Assembly (NCBI RefSeq): GCF_011044975.1
Contig: NZ_JAAKZV010000050.1
Span: 1-39,664, forward strand
Source: Streptomyces coryli
Lineage (GTDB): Bacteria; Actinomycetota; Actinomycetes; Streptomycetales; Streptomycetaceae
Reading direction: 5' to 3'
Length of the DNA: 39,664 bases
The notes beneath the pieces were generated by a model. That model searched no databases and was not told the origin of the DNA. It saw nothing but the letters and a program-made list of their open reading frames with translations. Both the position numbers and the translations under genes were made by a program. Each line of letters opens with the position of its first letter. Position 1 is the stretch's first letter. Of the stretch, positions 26,829 through 39,556 are shown piece after piece.

Positions 26829-26964
26829 CGTGATACACCGACCCGGCGCCGCCGGCTCTTGACCTTTCACATAACATGCGGGTCGCAGTAAACGGTTGCT
26901 TCGCTCTCCCGGCAGCTACGGGGTGCGTAAACCGGAGTCTGACACCAACGAGGGGAATCAGTAC

Positions 26965-27930
26965 GTGTCGCCCGCTTCCGCCCCGCCTCCGTGGCAGCCG
27001 GGGCCCCCGCCGTATTCACCCGCCGCCGGGGCCCAGCCCCAGCAGGGCGGGTACTATCCGCCGCCGCAACCCGGTGTGGGCTATCAGCAGGCGCCGGCCC
27101 CACCGGGCTATGTGCCGCAGCAGGGCGGCGGATTCCCGCAGCAGGGCGGCGGGTTCCCCCCGCCGCCGCCCCCCGGCGGCGGCCGCGCCCCCGGGCGGAA
27201 GGCGCGAATATGGGGCGTCGTCCTGATCGTGCTGGGCGTGTTCCCGATACTCGGCGCGCTGGCGGTGATCGCGGCGGCCGTCAACAACGCGCAGCGCACC
27301 GAGACCAACCCGGAGTTCGCCGCCAAGGCCTGGCACAACCTCAGGTCGGACAAGATCTTCCCGGCGCACCTCAAGGACACCTCCATCATCCAGGCCAACA
27401 CCGGCTGGACCCGGCAGGGCATCCTCCGCAAGGGCTTCTCCTGCGACGAGAACCTGGGCGGCCCGTTCAAGAAGCAGGCCGAATCGGCCGGTTGCAAGCA
27501 GGTCCTGGCGGCCACGTACACCGACGACACCGGCAAGTACGCCGCCACGGTGGCGCTCGTCGTCACCCGCTCGAACAAGGCCTCCCAGTCGCTGGCCGCC
27601 GAGTTCGACGAAGCCGTCAACGCGCGCCGGACCACTGACCCGGTGAAGCCCCCCATCAGGCCGATCGCCGTGCCGAATACCCCGGCCGCGCAGTGGCGGG
27701 CCTTCGGCGGCGCCGTCACCGCGATCACCACGGTCGACGAGAACGCCCCCTATGCCGTGGCCGTCACCGCCGGGCATACGGACCTCAAGCGCAAGTTCGG
27801 CTATCTGCCCGGCACTTGGGCGGATCAGGGGCCGGACGAGGTGCGGCTCTTCCCGAAGATGGCCGACGAGCTCGCGAGCATCTTCAGCCGCACGTTCCCG
27901 CGGGTCATGGAAGGCGAGGAGACAAAGTGA
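26965..27930 (+). CDS. Proline-rich N-terminus single-pass membrane protein, partner of mycosin-like protease
   Basis: 321 residues from the GTG at 26965 (GAGGGGA upstream). Residues 1-75 are a Pro/Gln/Gly/Tyr-rich cytoplasmic-type tail with GGGFPQQ repeated. One membrane helix follows the basic GRKARIWGVVLIVLGVFPIL (about 80-105). The exported part holds two Cys (SCDENLGG, AGCKQVLAA) that could form a disulfide, and no enzyme motif. It overlaps the protease gene by 4 bp (GTGA), so the two are coupled. Similar Pro-rich-tail proteins sit near type VII secretion genes in actinomycetes, but I see no ESX component here. Possibly a protease partner or substrate. Confidence 0.85.
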   Translation: MSPASAPPPWQPGPPPYSPAAGAQPQQGGYYPPPQPGVGYQQAPAPPGYVPQQGGGFPQQGGGFPPPPPPGGGRAPGRKARIWGVVLIVLGVFPILGALAVIAAAVNNAQRTETNPEFAAKAWHNLRSDKIFPAHLKDTSIIQANTGWTRQGILRKGFSCDENLGGPFKKQAESAGCKQVLAATYTDDTGKYAATVALVVTRSNKASQSLAAEFDEAVNARRTTDPVKPPIRPIAVPNTPAAQWRAFGGAVTAITTVDENAPYAVAVTAGHTDLKRKFGYLPGTWADQGPDEVRLFPKMADELASIFSRTFPRVMEGEETK

Positions 27931-29162
27931 GGCGCCTGAACAAGACGGCCCTCGCGGCCCTGGCGGGCGGCCTCGCGGCCGCGCTGGTCGGCACCGCCCC
28001 GGGCACCGCCGTCGCGGCCACGCCCGGCTGGGAGCGGCAGGCGATGTCGCTGCCGGCGGCGCACGCCGTGAGCAAGGGCGACGGCATGACGGTGGCCGTC
28101 ATCGACTCCGGCATCGTCACCGACCAGCCGGTGCTCGCGGGCCGCGCCAAGAACGGCCCGGACTTCCTTAATGAGGACGACCAGAAGGAGTCCTGGTACG
28201 GCGGGCACGGCACGTCCATGGCGTCGAGCGTGCTGGACGTCGCGCCGAACGCGAAGGTCCTCGGACTGCGGGCCATCCGCGACCGCGAGGACCCCGATTA
28301 CAAGACCTGGAACGAGGCCATGCAGGAGGGCCCGGGGAGCAACGACGGCCCCGTGGACGCGCTGCGGGACGCGATTCTCTACGCGGTGAAGCACGACGCC
28401 GACGTCATCTCGATGTCGCTCGGCGACGCCAGCTGGACGGCGCGCTACGACGGGGGCGAGGCCAACGCGATCCAGTACGCGCTCTCCAAGGGCGTGACCG
28501 TGGTCGCCTCCGCCGGGAACAGCGGCGACCTGAGCCGGATCGACGAGACCGGCAACGGCGACGACGAGAACAACATCGGCTATCCGGCCGGCTACCCGGG
28601 CGTGCTCACGGTGGCGGCCACCCAGCCGGGCGGCTCCCGCGCCTCCTTCTCCTCGGTCCACAACTACGTGGACGTCGCGGCGCCCGGCGTGGACATCTAC
28701 GGCGCCGACAACCGCGGCAAGGGCCGTAAGTCCGGCGACGGCACCTCGCCCGCCGCCGCGCTGACCGCGGGCACCGCGGCGCTGGTGCAGGCGAAGTACC
28801 CGAAGCTGTCACCGGCCCAGGTGGTCCAGGTGCTGCAGAAGTCGGCCTCGCATCCTGGCTCGTATTCGCCGCTCACCGGCTACGGCCAGATCAACGCCGC
28901 GGCGGCGCTGCGGACCGCGGCGAAGGTCAAGGGCATCGGGTCGATGCCGGTGGGCACCATCGGCGCCGGGAAGTACTTCGGCCCTGGGGACGACGGCACG
29001 ACCCCGCGCGTGAAGGCCAGCATCGACAACGAATACCTGACGATGGCGGCGGTGTTCGGCGTACCCGGGCTGCTGGCGGTCATCGGCGGAATCCTGCTGT
29101 CGATCCGGGGCCGAAAGGCCCGCAAGGCCGCGGTCGCCCCCGCGTATCCGACGGCGTACTGA
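27927..29162 (+). CDS. Membrane-anchored S8 subtilase, mycosin-like
   Basis: 411 residues from the GTG at 27927, which overlaps the upstream gene by 4 bp. A signal peptide (RRLNKTALAALAGGLAAALV, cut after AVA) is followed by a subtilase domain: Asp in VAVIDSG, His in GGHGTSMAS, oxyanion Asn in VVASAGNSG, and Ser in GDGTSPAAALTAG. In the Ser motif the usual GTSMAxP reads GTSPAAA. The C-terminus carries one membrane helix (FGVPGLLAVIGGILLSIRG) and a basic tail, the MycP layout of type VII secretion. No eccB/C/D or WXG100 gene lies in the window, so it may work alone, or with its coupled partner. Confidence 0.92.
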   Translation: MRRLNKTALAALAGGLAAALVGTAPGTAVAATPGWERQAMSLPAAHAVSKGDGMTVAVIDSGIVTDQPVLAGRAKNGPDFLNEDDQKESWYGGHGTSMASSVLDVAPNAKVLGLRAIRDREDPDYKTWNEAMQEGPGSNDGPVDALRDAILYAVKHDADVISMSLGDASWTARYDGGEANAIQYALSKGVTVVASAGNSGDLSRIDETGNGDDENNIGYPAGYPGVLTVAATQPGGSRASFSSVHNYVDVAAPGVDIYGADNRGKGRKSGDGTSPAAALTAGTAALVQAKYPKLSPAQVVQVLQKSASHPGSYSPLTGYGQINAAAALRTAAKVKGIGSMPVGTIGAGKYFGPGDDGTTPRVKASIDNEYLTMAAVFGVPGLLAVIGGILLSIRGRKARKAAVAPAYPTAY

Positions 29163-29199: not shown

Positions 29200-29426
29200 T
29201 GAACGGGAATGGCGATACGGAGAGTTACGGCGGTGTCTACGGCCGCATCGCCGCTGCGACGGAGCGGCGGGCGATGCGGCGGCGACAGCGGGAGGAGTTC
29301 GCTCTGGCGCGGCGCTATGGCCTGCGGGCCCGGCAGGCGGCGCGGTTGCGGCAGGCCGGGCGGCGGAGGGGGCCGCCGGCGCGGCCGTCGCCGCCAGGTG
29401 TCAGTGAGCGGCGCCGAGTTCGATGA
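29199..29426 (+). CDS. Possible small basic protein
   Basis: 75 codons, MNGNGDTESYGGVYGRIAAA followed by an Arg-rich helix (ERRAMRRRQREEF). No Shine-Dalgarno sequence is visible, and the last 26 bp overlap the convergent SMR gene. The first half looks protein-like, while the Arg/Pro-rich end could be a chance open frame. Doubtful. Confidence 0.3.
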   Translation: MNGNGDTESYGGVYGRIAAATERRAMRRRQREEFALARRYGLRARQAARLRQAGRRRGPPARPSPPGVSERRRVR

Positions 29427-29724
29427 GGAGGACGCCGGTGGCGATCAGGGCGATGCCGAGGCCCATGACCTTGGTGAGGGGTTCGCGGAAGAGGATGCGG
29501 GAGGAGATGGCGGCCAGGGCGACGCCGGTTGCGGCCCAGATGCCGTAGGCGACGCCGAGGGCCATGCCGCCGTCCAGGGCGAGGGTGAGAAAGGCGAAGG
29601 CGGCCAGGAAGCCGGTGACCACGGCGAGGAACCACTTCCTGCTGCCGCCCCGGGAGGCCATCCGCAGCGAGAGGGAGGCGGTGGTCTCGGTCAGGATCGC
29701 GCCGGTGAGGAAGAGCCAGGTCAT
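29401..29724 (-). CDS. SMR family multidrug/guanidinium exporter subunit
   Basis: 107 residues, four membrane helices. The essential Glu lies in GAILTETTASLSL (helix 1), and GVAYGIWAATGVAL is the conserved helix 3 motif with the Trp of EmrE-type proteins. SMR proteins exchange protons for small cations. The ATG overlaps the stop of the preceding SMR gene (ATGA), so the two subunits probably form a heterodimer like EbrAB or YkkCD. Third gene of the TetR operon. Confidence 0.95.
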   Translation of the reverse strand: MTWLFLTGAILTETTASLSLRMASRGGSRKWFLAVVTGFLAAFAFLTLALDGGMALGVAYGIWAATGVALAAISSRILFREPLTKVMGLGIALIATGVLLIELGAAH

Positions 29725-30128
29725 GCCTGCGCTCCTTCCGTACGGGATGGGCCGCCTGCTCGGGATGCGCCGCCGGCTCGGGATGCCTCGCGGGCCTGGC
29801 GGGCGTGTGCGGCCTGGGAGCCGAGTTCCACGCACATCACGCCCGCGATGACCAGGCCGATACCCACGCCCATCAGGGCAGTCAGCGGGTCGCCGAAGAT
29901 GACCTTCGCCATGAGTGCGGTGAGGGCGACGCCGCAGGCGGCCCAGATGCCGTAGGCGACGCCCAGTCCCATCCCGGCGCGCAGCACCAGGGACAGGGCG
30001 GTGAACGCGCCGACGTAGCCGACGACGACAAGGAGGTACCAGGCCGGGGCGTCCAGGGCCGCGCGCAGCGCGAGCGTGGCGGTGACCTCGAGCAGGATCG
30101 CCGCGGCGAGCAGCAGCCATTGCCTCAT
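29721..30128 (-). CDS. SMR family exporter subunit with extended C-terminus
   Basis: 135 residues. Helix 1 holds the essential Glu (AAAILLEVTATLAL) and helix 3 GVAYGIWAACGVAL. After the fourth helix there is a hydrophilic extension of about 28 residues (ASRAGGASRAGGPSR) encoded by an 18-bp tandem repeat, unusual for a family normally near 105-110 residues. ATGA overlaps join it to the TetR gene upstream and to the second SMR gene downstream. Confidence 0.95.
   Translation of the reverse strand: MRQWLLLAAAILLEVTATLALRAALDAPAWYLLVVVGYVGAFTALSLVLRAGMGLGVAYGIWAACGVALTALMAKVIFGDPLTALMGVGIGLVIAGVMCVELGSQAAHARQAREASRAGGASRAGGPSRTEGAQA
29743..29796. repeat. Three 18-bp imperfect tandem repeats
   Basis: Units at 29743-29760, 29761-29778 and 29779-29796 each begin CGGGATG. 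They encode the Ser-Arg-Ala-Gly-Gly repeats in the tail of the first SMR subunit on the opposite strand. Confidence 0.7.
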
Positions 30129-30673
30129 GACACGGTCTCGTCCTCGAGGAGTTCGTCCGCGACGGCAAGGAGTAGGTCGCGGTCGCGGTCCGGGACGGGG
30201 AAGACGCCGGTGGCGACGGCGGTCCAGTAGCCGTCGGCGAGCAGGCGGGCGGCGGTCAGCCGGCCGTGGACCGACGCCGGCAGGTCGTCGGGCAGGTCGA
30301 GCCAGGGGCCGAGACGCCGGGTCCAGCCCTCGGTGAGGGCGTCGCGGTACAGCGCGTCGCAGCAGATCGCGTAGTCGGCGCGGTCGAACTGCTCGGTCAG
30401 GGCGACCTGGACGTAGGCGCGGATCCGCTGCTGCGGAGTCGCCGTCTCGACGGGCTGCCCGAGACGCTCCTGCAGGAGGGTCACCCATCGCCCGGCGGCG
30501 TGGTCGACGACCGCGAGCATCAGGGCTTCCTTGGTCGGAAAGTGATACATCAGCCCCGGCTTGGTCACCCCGACCTGCTTGGCCGCGGCATCCAGCGTGA
30601 TCGTCCCGCCCCCCTCGGCCCGGAGCAGCTCCAGCGCCCCGTCCAGAATCCGAATCTTTGCGTTGCTTGCCAT
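30125..30673 (-). CDS. TetR family repressor of the SMR operon
   Basis: 182 residues. The N-terminal HTH reads LDAAAKQVGVTKPGLMYHFP within residues 1-50, the TetR pattern. The C-terminal ligand domain is typical, with two adjacent Cys (YAICCDALY) that might sense thiol or metal stress. It heads a three-gene operon (TetR, SMR, SMR) with 4-nt overlaps. A near-perfect palindrome lies 8 bp before its ATG, so it most likely represses its own operon and is released by a cationic compound. Confidence 0.93.
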   Translation of the reverse strand: MASNAKIRILDGALELLRAEGGGTITLDAAAKQVGVTKPGLMYHFPTKEALMLAVVDHAAGRWVTLLQERLGQPVETATPQQRIRAYVQVALTEQFDRADYAICCDALYRDALTEGWTRRLGPWLDLPDDLPASVHGRLTAARLLADGYWTAVATGVFPVPDRDRDLLLAVADELLEDETVS

Positions 30674-30702: not shown

Positions 30703-30874
30703 TACTGCGAATGTCGTCGCTGTCGCTGCCGTGGGCGGTGCGCATATGAATGCGCCAAGTCCCGTCGTCTGCCTGCCATTTCGCAGACGTTTTCCATGTT
30801 GATCCGTTAGGTTCTCTGCCACATCGGTCACTGGTGCGCCCATTCGGGCGTGTGTGCAGTCCATGGGAGCGTCT

Positions 30875-33034
30875 GTGCCTGAGGTCGTGGGGTTGGAGAG
30901 TCTGCTGAGCAAGGAGGGCTTTTTTGCCCGCCTGTTCGGGCGGGCTTCCGATGGCTCCCGACAGGATCCGCTGTACGGGCCCGATCTGCCCGTGGTGCTG
31001 CTCACCGGCGGGCCCGGCATGGGCAAGGAGCGGGTGCTGCGCGAGGTCCGGGACCGGTTCGCGAAGAAGCTGCCGGTGATCTACGTGGACTGCCGCCGGC
31101 CCCAGTACGCGACGCAGGCCGAGCTGGAGCCCGGCGCCCGCTCGGCGCCGACGGAGATCCTGTTCGACATCGCGCAGCGGCTGAGTACGTGGGACGGTAC
31201 GGGGGGTTCGTTCACCTTCCCCCGGCTGTTCGCCGGCCTCGCGGTGCTCGCGCCCGGCGTCCAGGCGGGCAGCGCCGCGGCGGTCGCCACCGAGGTCGAG
31301 CGATACGAGCGGATCGCCCCGCAGCGCGGCCGGCTCGGCCTGGCCAGGGGCGGCTTCTGGAGCACCGTCACCAAAGGCACCCTCAGCGGGCTGCTGACGA
31401 CGGCCGCCACCGGCACCCTCGGCCCGATCCCGGGCGTCTTCGTCAACGCCCTCGCGAACGCGGTCCTCGCGCGCCCGGCGTCCGGCAGCGGCAAGAAGGC
31501 GCTGCAGCGGAGTTACGGCGCCTATCGCGGCGCGGGCGGTCAGCCCGAGCACGGGCTGACGAACCTCGCCACCGACTTCCGCTCCGGCGGGGACGGGCGG
31601 CGGCTGGCGGAGGACTTCCTCTTCCGCGTACTGCGCGAGGATCTGGAGGCGGATTACGCGTCGCCCACCGGCGTCATGTCCCGGGTCGGCCGCCCGGTGC
31701 TGCTCTTCGACCACGCCGACTCACCGCTCGGGCAGGGCCTGCTCCGCGCCGTACTGGCCGAGCGCCGGGACGGGCAGCGCGACCGCGTGGTCGTCGTCGG
31801 GACGGCACGCCGGCCGGACGGCGGAGCCTTCCTGCACCGCGGGCAGTTGCTGGACGAGACGACCCCGCCGGCGGCGTTCCGGCCCGGCGACGGCTTTCCG
31901 TCCACCTGGACCCGGCCCGCCGACGGCGCGGCCGCGGGAGCCACCCAGGCACCGCTCGCCGACGGGGTGCTGCTGCTGCGGATGCCGTTTCTCACCAACG
32001 TCCAGATCAGCGACGAGATCGCCCGCTGGCAGACGGGCGCGCCCCCGATGGGCGGTGCCCACGCGCTGCTGATCGAGTCCGCCGTGACCCGGCTGAGCAA
32101 TGGCCGGCCGCACACCGTGCGCCGACTGGCCGCCGCGTCCTCCGAGTTCCGGATGCCGGACGACGCCAACCACCGCGATCTCCTGGACGCCCCACTGCGC
32201 GACGACGTCGCGCCCGCGCGACCGGTGGCGGAGATGCTGGTCCAGGAGCTGATCGAGGACCAGCTGCCGACGGAGCTGCCGCCCGTGCACCACTCGCAGT
32301 GGCTGGATCTGCTCACCCACCTGTCCATCACCCACGACGAAGAGTGCGCCGACGTCGTGCTCCGCCACCACCAGCAGGGCCACCTGCACCAGCTGCGGGC
32401 CCATCAGGTGGCGCGCCTGCTCGCCGACGCCGGATGGCCGCGCTGCGAGCGGCACTTCATCGGTGACTTCGGCCTGCGCCAGTTGCTGCTGCACCGGTTG
32501 TACGGGCTGCTGCCCGACGGCGCCGCCTGGTACGCCGACCATCAGCTGCTGCGGGACCACTACCCGGCGGCCCCGGCGCAGAACGGGTCCCCGCCGCCCG
32601 GCGGGGCGTTCCGGTCGGCGACCGCGCATCACATGAACCACCACCTGGTGTCCGGCGGCGTACCGGACGTCATCGGCCATCTGGTGAGCGCGCTGCCCGG
32701 GCGGCCCCAGGAGTGGTGCGCGGAGCTGCTCGAGATCGCCCAGGCGCCGTATCCCCCGGGAGCCGACGCCCGGCTGCAGCGGGCCCTCGGCAGGGTCCCG
32801 GTCCCCGGGGAGCCGCTGCAGCGCACCGTCGACCAGCTGCTGCACACCGTGTGGCTCTGCCAGGAGCGGACCCGGCCGATCGCGGCGACGCTGGACGGCG
32901 CACTGGGGATGCATCTGGCGGTGCTCGGGGGCATGGAGTTCGACGGCGCCGGACTCATCGGTCCGGCAACGGCCGCTTGGCCGGGCAAGGCATCGGCCGA
33001 CCAGCCGCTGCTGCCCTGTACCTGCGTGAAGTAG
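30875..33034 (+). CDS. P-loop NTPase-like protein with atypical Walker A, partner of binding-fold protein
   Basis: 719 residues from the GTG at 30875 (GGGAG 5 nt upstream); a GTG at 30854 is also in frame. The Walker A is GGPGMGKE at 45-52, in which Glu replaces the Ser/Thr that normally holds Mg2+. A Walker B-like RPVLLFDHAD lies near 280, with a RVVVVGTAR strand soon after. Between them is a Gly/Ala-rich, partly hydrophobic region (GTLSGLLTTAATGTLGPIPG, about 170-195) that could touch membrane. The C-terminal half is helical and His-rich. I do not recognise a named family. It is 23 bp upstream of a membrane-anchored binding-fold gene, and the two are surely one operon. It may be a cytoplasmic signalling NTPase that has lost or altered catalysis. 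Confidence 0.85.
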   Translation: MPEVVGLESLLSKEGFFARLFGRASDGSRQDPLYGPDLPVVLLTGGPGMGKERVLREVRDRFAKKLPVIYVDCRRPQYATQAELEPGARSAPTEILFDIAQRLSTWDGTGGSFTFPRLFAGLAVLAPGVQAGSAAAVATEVERYERIAPQRGRLGLARGGFWSTVTKGTLSGLLTTAATGTLGPIPGVFVNALANAVLARPASGSGKKALQRSYGAYRGAGGQPEHGLTNLATDFRSGGDGRRLAEDFLFRVLREDLEADYASPTGVMSRVGRPVLLFDHADSPLGQGLLRAVLAERRDGQRDRVVVVGTARRPDGGAFLHRGQLLDETTPPAAFRPGDGFPSTWTRPADGAAAGATQAPLADGVLLLRMPFLTNVQISDEIARWQTGAPPMGGAHALLIESAVTRLSNGRPHTVRRLAAASSEFRMPDDANHRDLLDAPLRDDVAPARPVAEMLVQELIEDQLPTELPPVHHSQWLDLLTHLSITHDEECADVVLRHHQQGHLHQLRAHQVARLLADAGWPRCERHFIGDFGLRQLLLHRLYGLLPDGAAWYADHQLLRDHYPAAPAQNGSPPPGGAFRSATAHHMNHHLVSGGVPDVIGHLVSALPGRPQEWCAELLEIAQAPYPPGADARLQRALGRVPVPGEPLQRTVDQLLHTVWLCQERTRPIAATLDGALGMHLAVLGGMEFDGAGLIGPATAAWPGKASADQPLLPCTCVK

Positions 33035-33057
33035 ATCGTTCTGAGGAGACAACGGGG

Positions 33058-34641
33058 ATGCCCAGGTGGTTGCAGCTACTCATCGCGGTGCTCACCGCGG
33101 CCGCGATCGGCCTCGCCGTCTGGGGCGGCATCTCGCTCTACCAGGCGGGGAAGGAGCCCGACACCTGCACCGACGGCATCGAGAAGATCGACGGCGAGTG
33201 CATCGGCGTCAACGCCGACGGCTATGACTTCGAGACCGCCGAGATCAGCGACGTGGCCAAGGCGATCGCCGCCGAGAACAAGCGGATCGAGAAGCAGCCG
33301 CACGTCACCGTGGCGATGATGCTGCCGCTGCAGTCCGACAAGCCGTCCGTACGCCGGCAGATACGCAGCGACCTGCAGGGCGCGTACCTGGGGCAGCGGC
33401 GGGCCAACGAGGGCGAGGGCGAGCCGCCGAAGATCCGCCTCGCGCTCGCCAACCCCGGGCGGGATTACGGGCGGCAGAAGGACGTCGTGGACACCCTTCT
33501 GGAGTGGGCCGACTCGAAGCAGCACAAACTGCGCGCCGTGACCGGCTTCAACCTCAGCCTCGACACGACGGAGGCGGCCGTCAAGCGGCTGACGAAGCAC
33601 CGCGTTCCGGTGCTCGCCTCCCGGATCAGCGGCGACAGGATCTCCAACAAGGAGACCACGAACGGCACGGACAAGCTGAAATTCCCCGGCCTCGCCCGGA
33701 TCATCCCCACCAACGGTGACGCGGCCAAGGCGCTGGCCGACTACAACGGCGAACGGGGCCTGCGGAACCAGAAGACCGTGCTGGTCTACGACTCCCGCGA
33801 GGACAGCTATGTCCAGTCGCTGGCGGACGCTTTCACCAGCATCAAGGAGAAGGGCCCCGCCGGTCAGGCCGCGATCCCCTTCGAGTCCCCGGCCATCGAC
33901 GAGGCCGGCACGACCGGGAATCAGTTCGCCTCCATCGCCCACAACATCTGCGGATCGAGCGCCGATACCGTCTATTTCGCGGGCCGCACCCTGCACCTGC
34001 GGATCTTCGCGCTCAAGCTCGCCGCGATGCAGTGCGAGAAGCGGCACTACACCATCATCAGCGGCTCCGACGCCGCCTCGCTGCGGCAGAACATGTCGGA
34101 GGACGACTGGGGGGACCTGCGCGGTGCGGGCGGCAAGCCGAAGGTGACGGTGCAGTACGCGGCGCCGGCGCATCCGGGGGCGTGGAAGGCCGAGTTGGCC
34201 GAGCGCACGGACAAGCCGCAATACCTCAAGGAGCCCGACGAGGCCCTGGGTCGCCTCGAAGACGAGATCGACGCCGTCCACGACGAGAACATCAACCTCG
34301 GCTCCGTACCGGACCTGAAGGACTCCCGCACGATGCTCGTATACGACGGTCTCATCACCATCGGTACGGCGCTGCACCAGGCGCAGCAGGGGGGCACCGA
34401 GGACCTGCCGAGCCGGCGCGACGTCGGCGCGCAGTGGGCACTGCTGAATTCCCAGTCGCGGGTGCAGGGCTCCAGCGGCCTCATCTGCCTGACCAGCAGC
34501 GGGAATCCGTACGACAAGCCGGCCGCCATAGTCGAGCTCGATCCGGGCACGGAAGGCAAGGGCGAGCTGAAGTTCGTGGGGCTGGGGTGGCCGACCGGCA
34601 GACCGCAGCTGCCGAACTGCGTGATCCCCAGCAGCTCCTGA
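33058..34641 (+). CDS. Membrane-anchored periplasmic-binding-fold (type 1 PBP) protein
   Basis: 527 residues. One N-terminal membrane helix (LQLLIAVLTAAAIGLAVWGG, about 4-27) without a lipobox, then two close Cys (DTCTDGIEKIDGECIG) and a two-lobed type 1 periplasmic-binding fold resembling branched-chain amino-acid receptors (HVTVAMMLPL, GDAAKALADYNGERG, KTVLVYDSREDSYVQSLADA, DTVYFAG, YTIISGSDAASL). No permease or ABC ATPase is adjacent, so a sensor role is more likely than transport. The ATG has GAGGAG about ten bases upstream. It directly follows the NTPase-like gene and precedes the AfsR-like gene by 28 bp. Confidence 0.88.
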   Translation: MPRWLQLLIAVLTAAAIGLAVWGGISLYQAGKEPDTCTDGIEKIDGECIGVNADGYDFETAEISDVAKAIAAENKRIEKQPHVTVAMMLPLQSDKPSVRRQIRSDLQGAYLGQRRANEGEGEPPKIRLALANPGRDYGRQKDVVDTLLEWADSKQHKLRAVTGFNLSLDTTEAAVKRLTKHRVPVLASRISGDRISNKETTNGTDKLKFPGLARIIPTNGDAAKALADYNGERGLRNQKTVLVYDSREDSYVQSLADAFTSIKEKGPAGQAAIPFESPAIDEAGTTGNQFASIAHNICGSSADTVYFAGRTLHLRIFALKLAAMQCEKRHYTIISGSDAASLRQNMSEDDWGDLRGAGGKPKVTVQYAAPAHPGAWKAELAERTDKPQYLKEPDEALGRLEDEIDAVHDENINLGSVPDLKDSRTMLVYDGLITIGTALHQAQQGGTEDLPSRRDVGAQWALLNSQSRVQGSSGLICLTSSGNPYDKPAAIVELDPGTEGKGELKFVGLGWPTGRPQLPNCVIPSSS

Positions 34642-34669: not shown

Positions 34670-37600
34670 GTGAACATCGACCTGACCTTGCTGCCCCGCG
34701 TCGCCTATCGCGATCAGGAGATCACCGCGCCGCGGCTGCGCGGGTTGCTCGCGTTGCTGGCGGAGGATCTGAAGACGGGGGCCGGGACCGGACGGCTTGT
34801 CGAGGGGCTGTGGCCCGATGAGCAGCCCGAGCGGCCCGGCAAGGCGATTCAGGTGCTGGTGTCGCGGGCGCGGTCGCAGCTCGGGGCCGAGGTCATCGAG
34901 AGCACGCCCACCGGGTATCGGCTGGGGCTGCGGGCGGAGCAGGTGGACAGTTCCGCGCTGCTGCTGCATGCCGCCGCGAGTGCCGAGCGGGCGCGGGCGG
35001 GGGATCATGCCGGCTCGCTGGCGGCGGCGGATGCGGGGCTGGCGCTGTGGGAGGGCGTGGGCGAGGACGCGGGGGACGACGAATTCCATGATCCCGTAGC
35101 CGCGTTGCGCGCCGAGCGGGCGCCGGTGCGTCGCACCCTGATACGACACCGCGCGCTCGCGCTCGCCCGGCTGGGGCGGCACTCCGAGGCCGCCGGGCCG
35201 CTCGACGAGGTGTTCACGGAGCACCCGCGGGACGAGGAGGTGCTGGCCGAGCTGCTGCGCGGGATAGCGGGCACCGCAGGGCCGTCCGCGGCCCTCGCGC
35301 GCTACGAGACGTACCGCCGCGAGCTCCGCGACGATCTCGGCACCGACCCGGGGGCCGCGCTGAAGGCCGTACAGCAGGAGCTGCTGAGCGGTGAGGCGCC
35401 GACCGTACGACATGGGGTGCCGCACGAGCCGAATCCGCTGCTGGGGCGGGACGCCGATGTCGCCGCCGTGGCCGGGCTGCTGGAGACCGCGCGGGTCGTC
35501 ACCGTCGCCGGGCCCGGCGGGCTCGGGAAGACCCGGCTCGCGTACGCCGTGAGCCGGCGGGCGCGGCAGCGGGTGGTGTATTTCGTGCCGCTCGCGGGCG
35601 TCACCGACGACGCGGACGTGGCCGCCGAGGTGGCCTCCGCGCTCGGCGCGGGCGAGGGGCCCAGCCTCGGGGGCGCACCGTCCTCCGACGCCGGGTCCGC
35701 CATCCTCGGCGTGCTCGGCTCCGGACCCGCGCTGCTGGTGCTGGACAACTGCGAGCAGGTCGTCGGCGGCGTCGCCGCCCTCGTCCAGTCGCTCGTCTCC
35801 GCCTCCAAGGACCTGCGCGTGCTGACCACCAGCCGCGCCCCGCTCGACCTCAGCTCGGAGTCCGTCTACGGGCTGCCGGAGCTCGGCCTCGAGACGATGG
35901 TCGACCTGTTCGGGCAGCGGGCCCGCTCGGCCCGGCCAGGGGTGGAGCTGCCGGACGAGCCCGTACGGCAGCTGTGCCGGCATCTCGACGGGCTGCCGCT
36001 GGCCGTGGAGCTGGCGGCGGCGCGGGTACGGGTGCTGTCCGTACCGGAGATCGCCCGCCGCCTCGGCGACCGCTTCACGCTGCTGCGCGGGGGCGCGCGG
36101 GACGCGCCGGAGCGGCACCGGACGCTGCACGCCGTCGTGGAGTGGAGCTGGAATCTGCTCGAGCAGGACGCGCGGGCGGCGCTGCGTTCGCTGTCCGTCT
36201 TCCCCGGCGGCTTCACCGCGGAGGCCGCCGAGCAGGTGCTCGCGGACGGGGACGGCGACGCGCTGCTGCTCATCGAGCAGCTCACCGACCAGTCGCTGCT
36301 GCGTGCCACCGACACCCCGGCCGGGATGCGCTTCCGGATGCTGGAGTCGGTACGGGAGTTCTGCGCCGCCCGCCGGGTGGAGGCGCGCGAGGACGAGGCG
36401 GCCACCGCCCGGTTCCTCGGCTGGGTGCGGGACTTCGGCCGCCGGTACCACGACGCCATCCTCGGCCCGGATCTGCTGCAGATCTGGGAGCTGATCAGGG
36501 CCGAGCAGGACAACCTCGTGCCGGCCCACCGGCACGCCCTCGCCCACGACGACCTGCCGACGCTGGCCGCGACCACCGCCCTGCTGGGCTGCCTGTGGTC
36601 CACCGACACCAGCTACGAGCGGCTGCTCACCCTCACCGCCGAGTCGGGCCCGCCGCTGTCCCACCACCACCCGGAGCCCGCCGACGCGGACGTGGCGCGC
36701 ACCGCGGCGACGATCTGCACGGCGAGCCTGTTCATGGGCAACGGGCCGCGTGCGGTGCGCCAGTTGGTCACCCTGCGCCGGCTGCCGGCGGCCCCGCCGG
36801 ACACGCTGGTTCGGGCGCTCGCGGTGGTGCTGCAGGCCGTACCGGACATGCGGCCGCCGGACTACGAGGTGCTGCAGGAGCTGTGCCGCAGCAGCGAGCC
36901 GCTGCTGGCGGGCGTGGCCGAGATCGTCGCGTCGTATCTCTGGGAGGGCGCCGGGGACCACGACCGGGCGCTGGAGTCGGCGCGGCGGATGGTCGCCGCG
37001 CTGCGCCCGCTGCGCAGCCCGATCACGACGATCATCGGCCATGGCCGGCTCGGCGAGCTGTGCCTGCAGGTGCAGCGCGGCGAGGAGGCATACACGCATC
37101 TGAAGGACGGCCTCGAAATACTGCTCGCGCAGGGCGGCTACCGCGACTCGGTCGGCATGCGCCACGCCCTGGTCCTCGCCTGTCTGCAGCGCGGCGAGAT
37201 CGACGAGGCCGAGGAGTGGCTGCGGCAGGCGGAGCTGGAGCAGCCGGCGGAGGGCATCGAGCAGCTGACCCCCGATCTCGGCACCCGCGCCGAGATCGCC
37301 CTCGCCCGCGGGACGACGGAGGTGGGGCTGCGGCTGTGGCGGAGCGCGGTGGAGTCGATGGGCGCGGGGGCCCAGGAGTATGCGGCGGACCCGTTCTTCG
37401 AGCGGTGGGCGCTGGAGGTCCGGTCCACGGCGCTGACGGCGCATGCGCACGCCGGGCGGCTGGAGTTGGTGGCGGGGCTGCACGACCAGCTGCGGGAGCA
37501 GCTGCGTTCGCTGCTGGCGGCGCCGCCCGCAGGGCCGGCGGAGCTTCCGGTGTACGGGACGGTGCTGCACGCGCTCGGGATGGCCCGGGTGGTGGAGGGC

Positions 37601-37816
37601 GACGCGGCCGGGGTGCGGATGCTGGCGCTGGCGGAACGGCTGCGGGTGCAGCGGCAGTTCCAGCCGACGATGTCGGCCGAGCGGGCGCGGGAGGCGGCGG
37701 AGAACGCCGACGGGGCGGCGTACGCCGACGCGGTGTCGGAGTACGCCGCCCTGGGGCGGGACGATTTGCGGGAGGCTGCCCGCGGGCTCATCTCGATTAC
37801 TTCGGGTCGCGGTTGA
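34670..37816 (+). CDS. AfsR/SARP family regulator with NB-ARC and helical repeats
   Basis: 1048 residues. Domains: OmpR-type winged helix (about 1-90), bacterial transcriptional activation domain (about 95-235), NB-ARC ATPase with P-loop GPGGLGKT near 284 and Walker B LLVLDNCEQV near 357, and a long C-terminal TPR-like region. This is the AfsR layout without an obvious receptor kinase. SARP proteins activate promoters by binding 11-bp-spaced direct repeats. A matching triple repeat lies upstream of the convergent ABC exporter (39580-39612), the most likely local target. The stop overlaps the exporter permease gene by 20 bp on the opposite strand. Confidence 0.94.
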   Translation: MNIDLTLLPRVAYRDQEITAPRLRGLLALLAEDLKTGAGTGRLVEGLWPDEQPERPGKAIQVLVSRARSQLGAEVIESTPTGYRLGLRAEQVDSSALLLHAAASAERARAGDHAGSLAAADAGLALWEGVGEDAGDDEFHDPVAALRAERAPVRRTLIRHRALALARLGRHSEAAGPLDEVFTEHPRDEEVLAELLRGIAGTAGPSAALARYETYRRELRDDLGTDPGAALKAVQQELLSGEAPTVRHGVPHEPNPLLGRDADVAAVAGLLETARVVTVAGPGGLGKTRLAYAVSRRARQRVVYFVPLAGVTDDADVAAEVASALGAGEGPSLGGAPSSDAGSAILGVLGSGPALLVLDNCEQVVGGVAALVQSLVSASKDLRVLTTSRAPLDLSSESVYGLPELGLETMVDLFGQRARSARPGVELPDEPVRQLCRHLDGLPLAVELAAARVRVLSVPEIARRLGDRFTLLRGGARDAPERHRTLHAVVEWSWNLLEQDARAALRSLSVFPGGFTAEAAEQVLADGDGDALLLIEQLTDQSLLRATDTPAGMRFRMLESVREFCAARRVEAREDEAATARFLGWVRDFGRRYHDAILGPDLLQIWELIRAEQDNLVPAHRHALAHDDLPTLAATTALLGCLWSTDTSYERLLTLTAESGPPLSHHHPEPADADVARTAATICTASLFMGNGPRAVRQLVTLRRLPAAPPDTLVRALAVVLQAVPDMRPPDYEVLQELCRSSEPLLAGVAEIVASYLWEGAGDHDRALESARRMVAALRPLRSPITTIIGHGRLGELCLQVQRGEEAYTHLKDGLEILLAQGGYRDSVGMRHALVLACLQRGEIDEAEEWLRQAELEQPAEGIEQLTPDLGTRAEIALARGTTEVGLRLWRSAVESMGAGAQEYAADPFFERWALEVRSTALTAHAHAGRLELVAGLHDQLREQLRSLLAAPPAGPAELPVYGTVLHALGMARVVEGDAAGVRMLALAERLRVQRQFQPTMSAERAREAAENADGAAYADAVSEYAALGRDDLREAARGLISITSGRG

Positions 37817-38585
37817 AGGACGCCTTCGACCAGTAGTAGCCGAGGACGGCCAGGCCGATGCTCCAGGCGATGGCGAGCCAGCCGTTGTGCCCGATCTCGC
37901 TGCCCAGGAGCAGGCCGCGCAGGGTCTCGATCACCGGGGTGAAGGGCTGGTATTCGGCGATCGGCTGGAACCAGCCCGGCATCGACTCGGCCGGCACGAA
38001 GGCGGAGGAGATCAGCGGCAGCAGGACCATCGGCATCGCGACGTTGCTGGCACCCTCGGCGTTCGGGCTGATCATGCCCATCCCGACGGCGATCCAGGTC
38101 AGGGCGAGGGCGTAGAGCGCGGTGAGGCCGAACGCCGCCAGCCACTCCAGCACATTGGCGTCCGTGGACCGGAAGCCGATGGCCACGCCGACCGCCCCGA
38201 CCAGCAGCACGCTGGCGATGCACTGCAGGACGCTGCCGATGACGTGCCCGATGAGGATCGAGCCGCGGTGGATGGCCATCGTACGGAAGCGGGCGATGAT
38301 GCCCTCGGACATGTCCATCGCCACGGACACCGCGGTCCCGACGACGGTGCTGCCGACGGTCATCATCAGGATGCCGGGGACGATGAACGCGATGTAGTCG
38401 GCTCGGTCGGCGCCGGCGCCGAGTCCGGCGCTCATCGCGTCACCGAAGATGTAGACGAAGAGCAGCAGCAGCATGACCGGGGTCAGCAGCAGGTTCAGGG
38501 TGAGCGACGGGTAGCGCTTCGCGTGCAGCAGGTTGCGGCGCAGCATGGTGTTCGAGTCGCGTACGGCGAGGGCGAAGGCGCTCAT
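37797..38585 (-). CDS. ABC-2 type exporter permease (DrrB-like)
   Basis: 262 residues with about six membrane helices. YPSLTLNLLLTPVMLLLLFV, then the amphipathic GIIARFRTMAIHRGSILIGH and SPNAEGASNVAMPMVLLPLI, are typical of DrrB/ABC-2 permeases. Its ATG overlaps the stop of the ATPase gene (ATGA). It would form an exporter with that ATPase for a hydrophobic compound not identifiable from sequence. Confidence 0.95.
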   Translation of the reverse strand: MSAFALAVRDSNTMLRRNLLHAKRYPSLTLNLLLTPVMLLLLFVYIFGDAMSAGLGAGADRADYIAFIVPGILMMTVGSTVVGTAVSVAMDMSEGIIARFRTMAIHRGSILIGHVIGSVLQCIASVLLVGAVGVAIGFRSTDANVLEWLAAFGLTALYALALTWIAVGMGMISPNAEGASNVAMPMVLLPLISSAFVPAESMPGWFQPIAEYQPFTPVIETLRGLLLGSEIGHNGWLAIAWSIGLAVLGYYWSKASFNRDPK

Positions 38586-39556
38586 CGGACAGTCTCCTTG
38601 GTCTGGTTGGGCTTGCTGGTGCCGCTGGTCAGGGCGAAGAACACGTCGTCGAGGTCGGGGGTGTGGACGGTGAGCTCGTCGGCGTCGACGCCGGCGGAGT
38701 CCAGCCAGTCCAGGATGGAGCGGAGCTCGCGCTGGCTGCCGTCGCTGGGGATCTGGAGGGTGAGGGACTCGTCGTCGCGGGTCGCCTCGCGGAGCGCGTA
38801 GCCGGCGGACTGGTAGGCGGCGGGGTCGGAGAACCGGAGGCGGACGTGGCCACCGGGGATGAGCCGCTTCAGCTCGTCGGCGGTGCCTTCGGCGACGATC
38901 TTGCCGTCGTTGAGGACGGCGATACGGTCGGCGAGCTCGTCGGCCTCCTCCAGGTACTGGGTGGTGAGGAAGACGGTGACGCCGTCGGACACGAGCTCGC
39001 GGATGATCCCCCACATGTTGTGGCGGGACCGCGGGTCGAGACCGGTGGTCGGCTCGTCGAGGAAGATGATCCGCGGATTGCCGACCAGCGTCATGGCGAT
39101 GTCGAGCCGCCGCTTCATGCCGCCGGAGTAGGTGGCGGCAGGCTTCTGCGCGGCCTCGGTGAGATCGAACCGCTCGAGCAGCTCGGCGGCGGCCCGCTTG
39201 CCCTCTTCCTTGGAGAGGTGGTGCAGGTCGGCCATGAGGAGCATGTTCTCCTCACCGGTGATCAGCCCGTCCACGGCGGAGAACTGCCCGGTGACCCCGA
39301 TGGCGGCCCGTACCGCCTGCGGGTCGGTGGCGAGATCGTGCCCGCCGATGTGAATGTCACCGGAGCCGGCGTCGGCACTGATGAGGGTGGAGAGGATCTT
39401 CACGGCGGTCGTCTTGCCGGCACCGTTCGGGCCGAGGAGCGAGAAGATCGTGCCCTGCGGCACGGAGATGTCGATGCCATCGAGGACGATCTTGTCCCCG
39501 TAGGCCTTGCGCAGCGCGGTGGCTGCGATGGCTTGGGTGCTCGGTGTCGTCGTCAT
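38582..39556 (-). CDS. ABC exporter ATPase (DrrA-like)
   Basis: 324 residues. Walker A GPNGAGKTT (about 42-50), signature YSGGMKRRLDIA (about 142-153), Walker B IIFLDEPTTGLD, and a C-terminal DrrA-type extension ending LDDVFFALTSG. It powers the permease encoded directly downstream. DrrAB exporters confer resistance or export secondary metabolites, but many are orphans, as this seems to be. The ATG at 39556 lies 23 bp from a triple 11-bp repeat. Confidence 0.96.
   Translation of the reverse strand: MTTTPSTQAIAATALRKAYGDKIVLDGIDISVPQGTIFSLLGPNGAGKTTAVKILSTLISADAGSGDIHIGGHDLATDPQAVRAAIGVTGQFSAVDGLITGEENMLLMADLHHLSKEEGKRAAAELLERFDLTEAAQKPAATYSGGMKRRLDIAMTLVGNPRIIFLDEPTTGLDPRSRHNMWGIIRELVSDGVTVFLTTQYLEEADELADRIAVLNDGKIVAEGTADELKRLIPGGHVRLRFSDPAAYQSAGYALREATRDDESLTLQIPSDGSQRELRSILDWLDSAGVDADELTVHTPDLDDVFFALTSGTSKPNQTKETVR

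Follow-up and report, generated by a model that had tools for sequence, protein, structure and literature searches.

A probable split transmembrane receptor with a STAND-like NTPase partner in Streptomyces coryli

Positions 1 to 39,664 of contig NZ_JAAKZV010000050.1 of Streptomyces coryli (referred to as the window) carry two adjacent genes that encode a STAND-like nucleoside triphosphatase (NTPase; P0001) and a receptor with a PBP type I outer domain (P0002). Comparison of their sequences with those of relatives makes it likely that the two form a split transmembrane receptor, in which the STAND-like and partly degenerate NTPase is the separately encoded partner. A first-pass annotation of the window had proposed a two-part unit of receptor and NTPase that works without a permease, and the relatives are well in line with this proposal. 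The receptor gene lies directly behind the NTPase gene in all 17 close loci. Among 180 distinct strong receptors, 95 have a separate NTPase gene upstream, and in 47 an NTPase-derived module is part of the receptor chain itself; a Liv-type permease gene is near only 3 of 149 receptor loci. In further relatives, this outer domain is linked to signalling domains of the immune type, which points to a role in sensing and not in transport.

The receptor and its outer domain

The stop codon of the NTPase gene at position 33034 and the receptor ATG at 33058 leave 23 bp between the two genes, as originally annotated. Searches with the single sequences of P0001 and P0002 against NCBIfam, PADLOC and PDB returned nothing or matches at chance level, and P0002 as a single sequence had no match in Pfam or PDB; profiles were therefore needed. 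The initial guess that P0002 has the fold of an ABC solute receptor became clear with a profile of 35 receptor rows (A3). Over part of its length, this profile matched the LIV-binding protein homologue 4n0q (E 6e-11) and the metabotropic glutamate receptor mGluR5 (3lmk, E 5e-7) in PDB, and mGluR1 was matched as well. These matches identify the outer domain as a PBP type I domain.

The membrane helix predicted at the N-terminus of the receptor was recovered as a single segment in a Kyte-Doolittle scan (19-residue window, mean of at least 1.6). The same scan found no membrane segment in P0001 and one segment in 12 of 91 family NTPases. No lipobox was seen in P0002 by eye, and in fused kin the same anchor helix sits mid-chain. 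Six residues, Cys37, Gly50, Cys298, Ala308, Arg310 and Cys326, are invariant in all 35 receptor rows. Ser167, kept in 32 of them, corresponds in the alignment to the Ser within a GxxxSxxT stretch of the LIV-type protein at locus L320 (loci of relatives are numbered with the prefix L). In LIV proteins this Ser contacts amino-acid ligands, and we infer that the receptor, too, may bind an amino-acid-like ligand.

The receptor family shares its PBP type I domain, by profile, with LIV/HAAT ABC binding proteins (Peripla_BP_6) and with metabotropic glutamate receptors. Unlike these, it has an N-terminal anchor helix, adds the C-x(10)-C-x-G and FAGR motifs and rarely has a Liv-type permease near. Classification as an ABC importer of the LIV/HAAT type was considered and rejected: the PBP type I domain is present, but a permease and an ATPase are seldom found beside the binding protein.

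Inner modules across the receptor family

In total, 193 receptor open reading frames (ORFs) were classed, of which 182 reached at least 75 bits and are called strong. They correspond to the 180 distinct receptors, because L121 is the same locus as L013 and two of the ORFs, at L014, belong to one broken receptor. For the class with an upstream NTPase gene, the same strand and a distance of at most 400 bp were required. This split form is the commonest among the receptor matches inspected, with a median gap of ~30 bp when starts are estimated from the profile.

The NTPase-derived module of the fused class was recognized in 19 receptors by an iterated hidden Markov model and in 28 via profile-profile groups, with L282, L288, L293, L294 and L296 assigned to fused groups by eye only. 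Alignment of the fused groups to the NTPase profile by hhalign gave probabilities of 93.7-99.9. These alignments cover only 74-84 columns around Walker B for groups A, C and F, the L166/L167 group being among those aligned over this short span, and 188-273 columns for the other groups. L291 is a full one-chain fusion with a canonical NTPase (GPGGSGKT). Two extra hydrophobic segments were observed within the NTPase-derived module of L162, L164, L166-L168, L171, L172, L180, L181, L185 and L198. In some fused kin, membrane segments thus separate the Walker A region from the Walker B region, an arrangement reminiscent of KAP NTPases. This assignment was rejected for the window, given that Pfam scans returned no KAP match and P0001 is free of membrane segments.

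Other inner domains were found in 19 of the 180 strong receptors, 16 by Pfam and 3 by eye. They comprise DUF4062 (L187, L188 and L190 by Pfam; L194, L286 and L287 by eye), EAD1 (both receptors of L200, L306 and L312), TIR (L297, L300 and L308, as well as L298, where it is combined with a sub-cut-off NB-ARC region), a Ser/Thr kinase (L289 and L301) and a caspase (L118). L210 (2540-6034) and L212 (2168-5101) combine TIR, Ser/Thr kinase, transmembrane segment and PBP domain in one chain. The caspase, DUF4062, EAD1, Pkinase, TIR_2 and combined TIR_2 and Pkinase matches are above the Pfam cut-offs and lie in one frame with the transmembrane segment and the PBP domain. L313, which at 64 bits falls under the 75-bit line, likewise carries EAD1. 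For 2 of the 180 strong receptors the upstream sequence is missing. Two receptors of the family stand in tandem at L196, L200 and L214.

What can be read directly from these sequences is adjacency, homology, the existence of one-chain versions and the replacement of the inner part by TIR, kinase, caspase, EAD1 or DUF4062 domains. Together with the rarity of permeases, these features fit a receptor with exchangeable cytosolic modules.

Walker A changes in the NTPase

P0001 matches AAA families in Pfam only below the cut-off (AAA_16 with 20.0 bits against a cut-off of 32.6, E 1e-3). At E≤0.01, AAA_16 was matched by 23 and AAA_22 by 20 of 35 family members. A PDB search with the NTPase profile returned as its top rows P-loop stretches of unrelated ATPases. 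The family resembles STAND NTPases (AAA_16/AAA_22/NB-ARC/nSTAND) in its P-loop, its Walker B Asp and its mostly sub-cut-off Pfam matches. In addition, P0001 has a G-x-P motif, which we take to be a mark of STAND proteins. D283 and G414 are nearly invariant in alignment A4, and the equivalent of P416 is kept in 81% of 97 rows. The family differs from STAND NTPases in that its second Walker B acid is mostly N or H and its Walker A is altered in several clades; in separate NTPases the Walker B Asp is mostly followed by N, H or D. In P0001 itself, Walker A and Walker B lie ~230 residues apart; the protein is paired with a PBP receptor and shows GKE in place of the GK[ST] expected of a STAND P-loop.

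The unusual Glu in the Ser/Thr slot of the P-loop, pointed out in the first-pass annotation, is indeed present: GGPGMGKE occupies residues 49-56 of P0001. In alignment A1, consisting of the window and 16 relatives, G49-K55 is invariant over all 17 rows and is followed by G, E or A. The mean column identity of A1 is 83%, and this conservation suggests selection.

To place the altered motif, 113 Walker A rows were aligned, including partial ORFs and one locus twice (L013/L121). Both K and S/T are present in 49 rows, whereas 30 rows have K without S/T (G in 23, A in 3, E in 2, Q and R in 1 each). In another 15 rows K is lost to R, A or G and S/T is kept. The remaining 19 rows lack both and come mainly from fused modules and partial ORFs. 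In a tree that was quickly built from 90 separate NTPases and drew warnings about long branches meeting, the clade of the window comprises 30 rows (SH-aLRT 100). Walker A is altered in 28 of these, the exceptions being L127 (T), which is the nearest row to the window, and L073 (S). Across this tree, at least nine changes between canonical and altered Walker A are required.

Hence, GKS or GKT is not the rule among homologues, neither in the family as a whole nor in the clade of the window, and the Glu of P0001 belongs to a loss shared across the clade rather than being a local mutation. As a mark of the system, the altered residue holds up only in part. The loss of Ser/Thr extends over the clade, but Glu itself is rare, the residue being mostly Gly, and distant kin are often canonical. 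Judged from these alignments, the NTPase family has altered its P-loop repeatedly, in several clades.

Close relatives and distribution

The 17 close loci were obtained from a scan of genome contigs and are all titled Streptomyces. The gap between NTPase and receptor gene is 4-41 bp in the 16 loci with unbroken frames. At L014 (7857-11792, Streptomyces violaceusniger NBRC 13459) both genes of the pair are split into two frames each, owing to mutation or to sequencing error; intact copies of the pair exist elsewhere.

Receptor profile A2 matched 118 of 199 genomes of the genus Streptomyces and 5 of 296 genomes drawn from the phylum. At E≤1e-6, profile A3 had a match in 103 of 394 genomes from the class. 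Since few candidates were scored per genome, these counts are lower bounds for the respective profile. At the same time, the weakest A3 matches inspected are LIV-type lipoproteins, so the number of 103 overstates the receptor family. L309, L311, L317 and L320, all below 75 bits, were rejected as receptors because they resemble such lipoproteins (by eye; L320 by Pfam). Four plasmid records matched, and the three that were inspected carried no gene annotation. The distance matrices of NTPase and receptor genes correlate with r 0.94 over 91 pairs and 0.74 among distant pairs, a correlation that would also be expected from co-inheritance alone.

Proposed mechanism and alternative explanations

In the proposed mechanism, a Venus-flytrap domain of the LIV-binding-protein/mGluR kind would bind a small, probably amino-acid-like ligand outside the cell, and a single membrane helix would connect it to the cytosol. 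The STAND-like NTPase of the neighbouring gene would serve as the cytosolic signalling half of the receptor. Ligand binding may change how the NTPase-like protein is assembled or which state it adopts, and the C-terminal half of this protein may then relay the signal. Any nucleotide that may be bound in the clade of the window would stay in place without being hydrolysed, and the module of fused kin that lack a P-loop would function without nucleotide. On a broader scale, and with chances that we put at slightly below even, there may be an undescribed actinobacterial superfamily of mGluR-like membrane receptors that combine a Venus-flytrap domain and one helix with exchangeable inner modules. 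The window pair would then represent a split form with an NTPase repeatedly made a non-hydrolysing relay, and the superfamily would provide counterparts of Toll-like and death receptors for small extracellular ligands.

Bacterial STAND, TIR and caspase systems are mostly regarded as internal sensors. If such modules are coupled to an outer small-molecule domain in one receptor family, this family would route extracellular signals to these switches in Streptomyces, and its one-chain and split forms would be material for testing how a scaffold replaces a nucleotide switch.

Several points weigh against the split receptor. We infer the ligand, the interaction of NTPase and receptor, the output and the effect of the altered Walker A from sequence. 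The architecture sample consists of matches chosen for inspection, and its shares are no estimate for all genomes. Only 3 of the fused NTPase-type groups are backed by curated families, the others being defined by custom profiles, and 17 of the 180 strong receptors lack a recognised partner.

It is improbable, on the other hand, that P0002 is an orphan ABC solute-binding protein which feeds a permease encoded elsewhere and has the NTPase as an incidental neighbour. Homology links its outer domain to binding proteins of the LIV type, and BPD_transp_2 permeases occur somewhere in all 25 genomes searched. However, the N-terminal helix without a visible lipobox, the NTPase gene or NTPase-derived module that accompanies 142 of the 180 strong receptors and the one-chain versions with TIR, kinase or caspase domains all argue against an orphan transport component, as does the scarcity of Liv-type permeases. 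A permease is not a regular neighbour of the homologues: all three Liv-type permease genes lie on the opposite strand and at least 3.9 kb away. An ABC ATPase gene was found at 16 of the 149 receptor loci, 4 times on the same strand; in the control, one lies within ~1.5 kb at 22 of 30 permease loci. The models for both were derived from loci that carry such genes in similar genomes, and the permease model recovers all 30 control loci by construction. Median flanks of the 149 loci were 5.4 and 5.3 kb, and 40 loci fetched later stand outside the permease count. Even less probable is that the NTPase is a dead remnant, with the GGPGMGK clade decaying and the function of the pair lost. Such decay would agree with the absence of the Walker A Ser/Thr from nearly the whole clade and with the two broken genes of L014, but it is at odds with the invariant G49-K55 stretch and the high column identity of A1.

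A defence or cell-death system of the STAND, caspase or TIR kind, which would respond to a signal from outside by killing or arresting the cell, would be a special case of the split receptor, and we consider it possible though less likely than not. The EAD1, caspase (at L118 with an EACC1 gene), TIR and DUF4062 partners are those of known conflict systems (Kaur et al. 2020; PMC7159879). Yet neither P0001 nor P0002 matched a PADLOC model, only weak PADLOC matches were obtained among 35 NTPases (mad8 3, PDC-S01 1), and no toxic enzyme was recognised in the pair.

According to the main-text passage on PBP in the same paper, an outer PBP domain with transmembrane helices is one variable end of the caspase protein in the EACC1-caspase two-gene system (System 4; PMC7159879). 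The pair resembles System 4, as described there, in its membrane-associated two-gene layout in actinobacteria. L118 fits System 4, having an EACC1 gene (E 8e-22) ~15 bp before a chain of caspase, transmembrane segment and PBP domain, and this PBP domain belongs to the same receptor family as P0002. The window pair thus has the outer domain of a conflict-system variant already described, combined with a different inner partner: it is without an EACC1, caspase or cyclase match in Pfam, and a separate STAND-like NTPase takes the inner position. An NTPase-PBP pair is not mentioned in that passage, figures and supplements being outside the comparison, and no published description of one was found in the literature searched, which consisted mostly of papers available without subscription and without their supplements.

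Neighbouring genes in the window

The statement that no transport gene is nearby requires adjustment. While no part of a Liv-type importer is present, ABC ATPase and ABC-2 genes lie 3-5 kb downstream of the pair and an SMR gene lies ~1 kb upstream (Table 1).

Table 1 Features of the gene pair and neighbouring transport genes in the window.
Feature	Position	Strand	Basis or remark
STAND-like NTPase gene (P0001, 723 aa)	30863..33034	+	ATG start; alternative GTG 30854
Walker A GGPGMGKE, Glu at Ser/Thr position	31007..31030	+	Alignment
Walker B-like PVLLFDHA, His after Asp	31694..31717	+	Alignment
G-x-P motif, G414 and P416	32102..32110	+	Alignment
Receptor gene (P0002, 527 aa; PBP type I, LIVBP/mGluR-like outer domain)	33058..34641	+	ORF, profile
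N-terminal membrane anchor helix, residues 7-25	33076..33132	+	Hydropathy mean 2.28
C37-x(10)-C48-x-G50 motif after helix	33166..33207	+	C37 and G50 in 35/35 rows, C48 in 34/35
SMR-type small multidrug resistance gene, second SMR gene, TetR regulator	29401-30673	-	First SMR E 7e-14, second SMR by eye
ABC-2 membrane gene	37797-39014	other	By eye
ABC ATPase gene	38582-39556	other	ABC_tran E 9e-28; DrrA-type C-terminus only sub-cut-off

A survey of 29 close loci for a conserved third gene, made with a simple custom gene caller that misplaced some genes, returned a single cluster present in at least 4 loci, a PAS-like gene (by eye) found in 4 loci at varying distance and on varying strand. In the window, a BTAD/AAA_22 (AfsR/SARP-like) regulator gene (34670-37816, + strand) starts 28 bp past the receptor gene on the same strand. 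This regulator could be co-transcribed with the pair; it is not among the clusters common to at least 4 of the 29 close loci. Further upstream, the window carries in order a glutamine synthetase gene, a gene for an unassigned Pro-rich protein and a subtilase gene (26896-29162, + strand; Peptidase_S8 E 9e-39), the product of which appears mycosin-like by eye.

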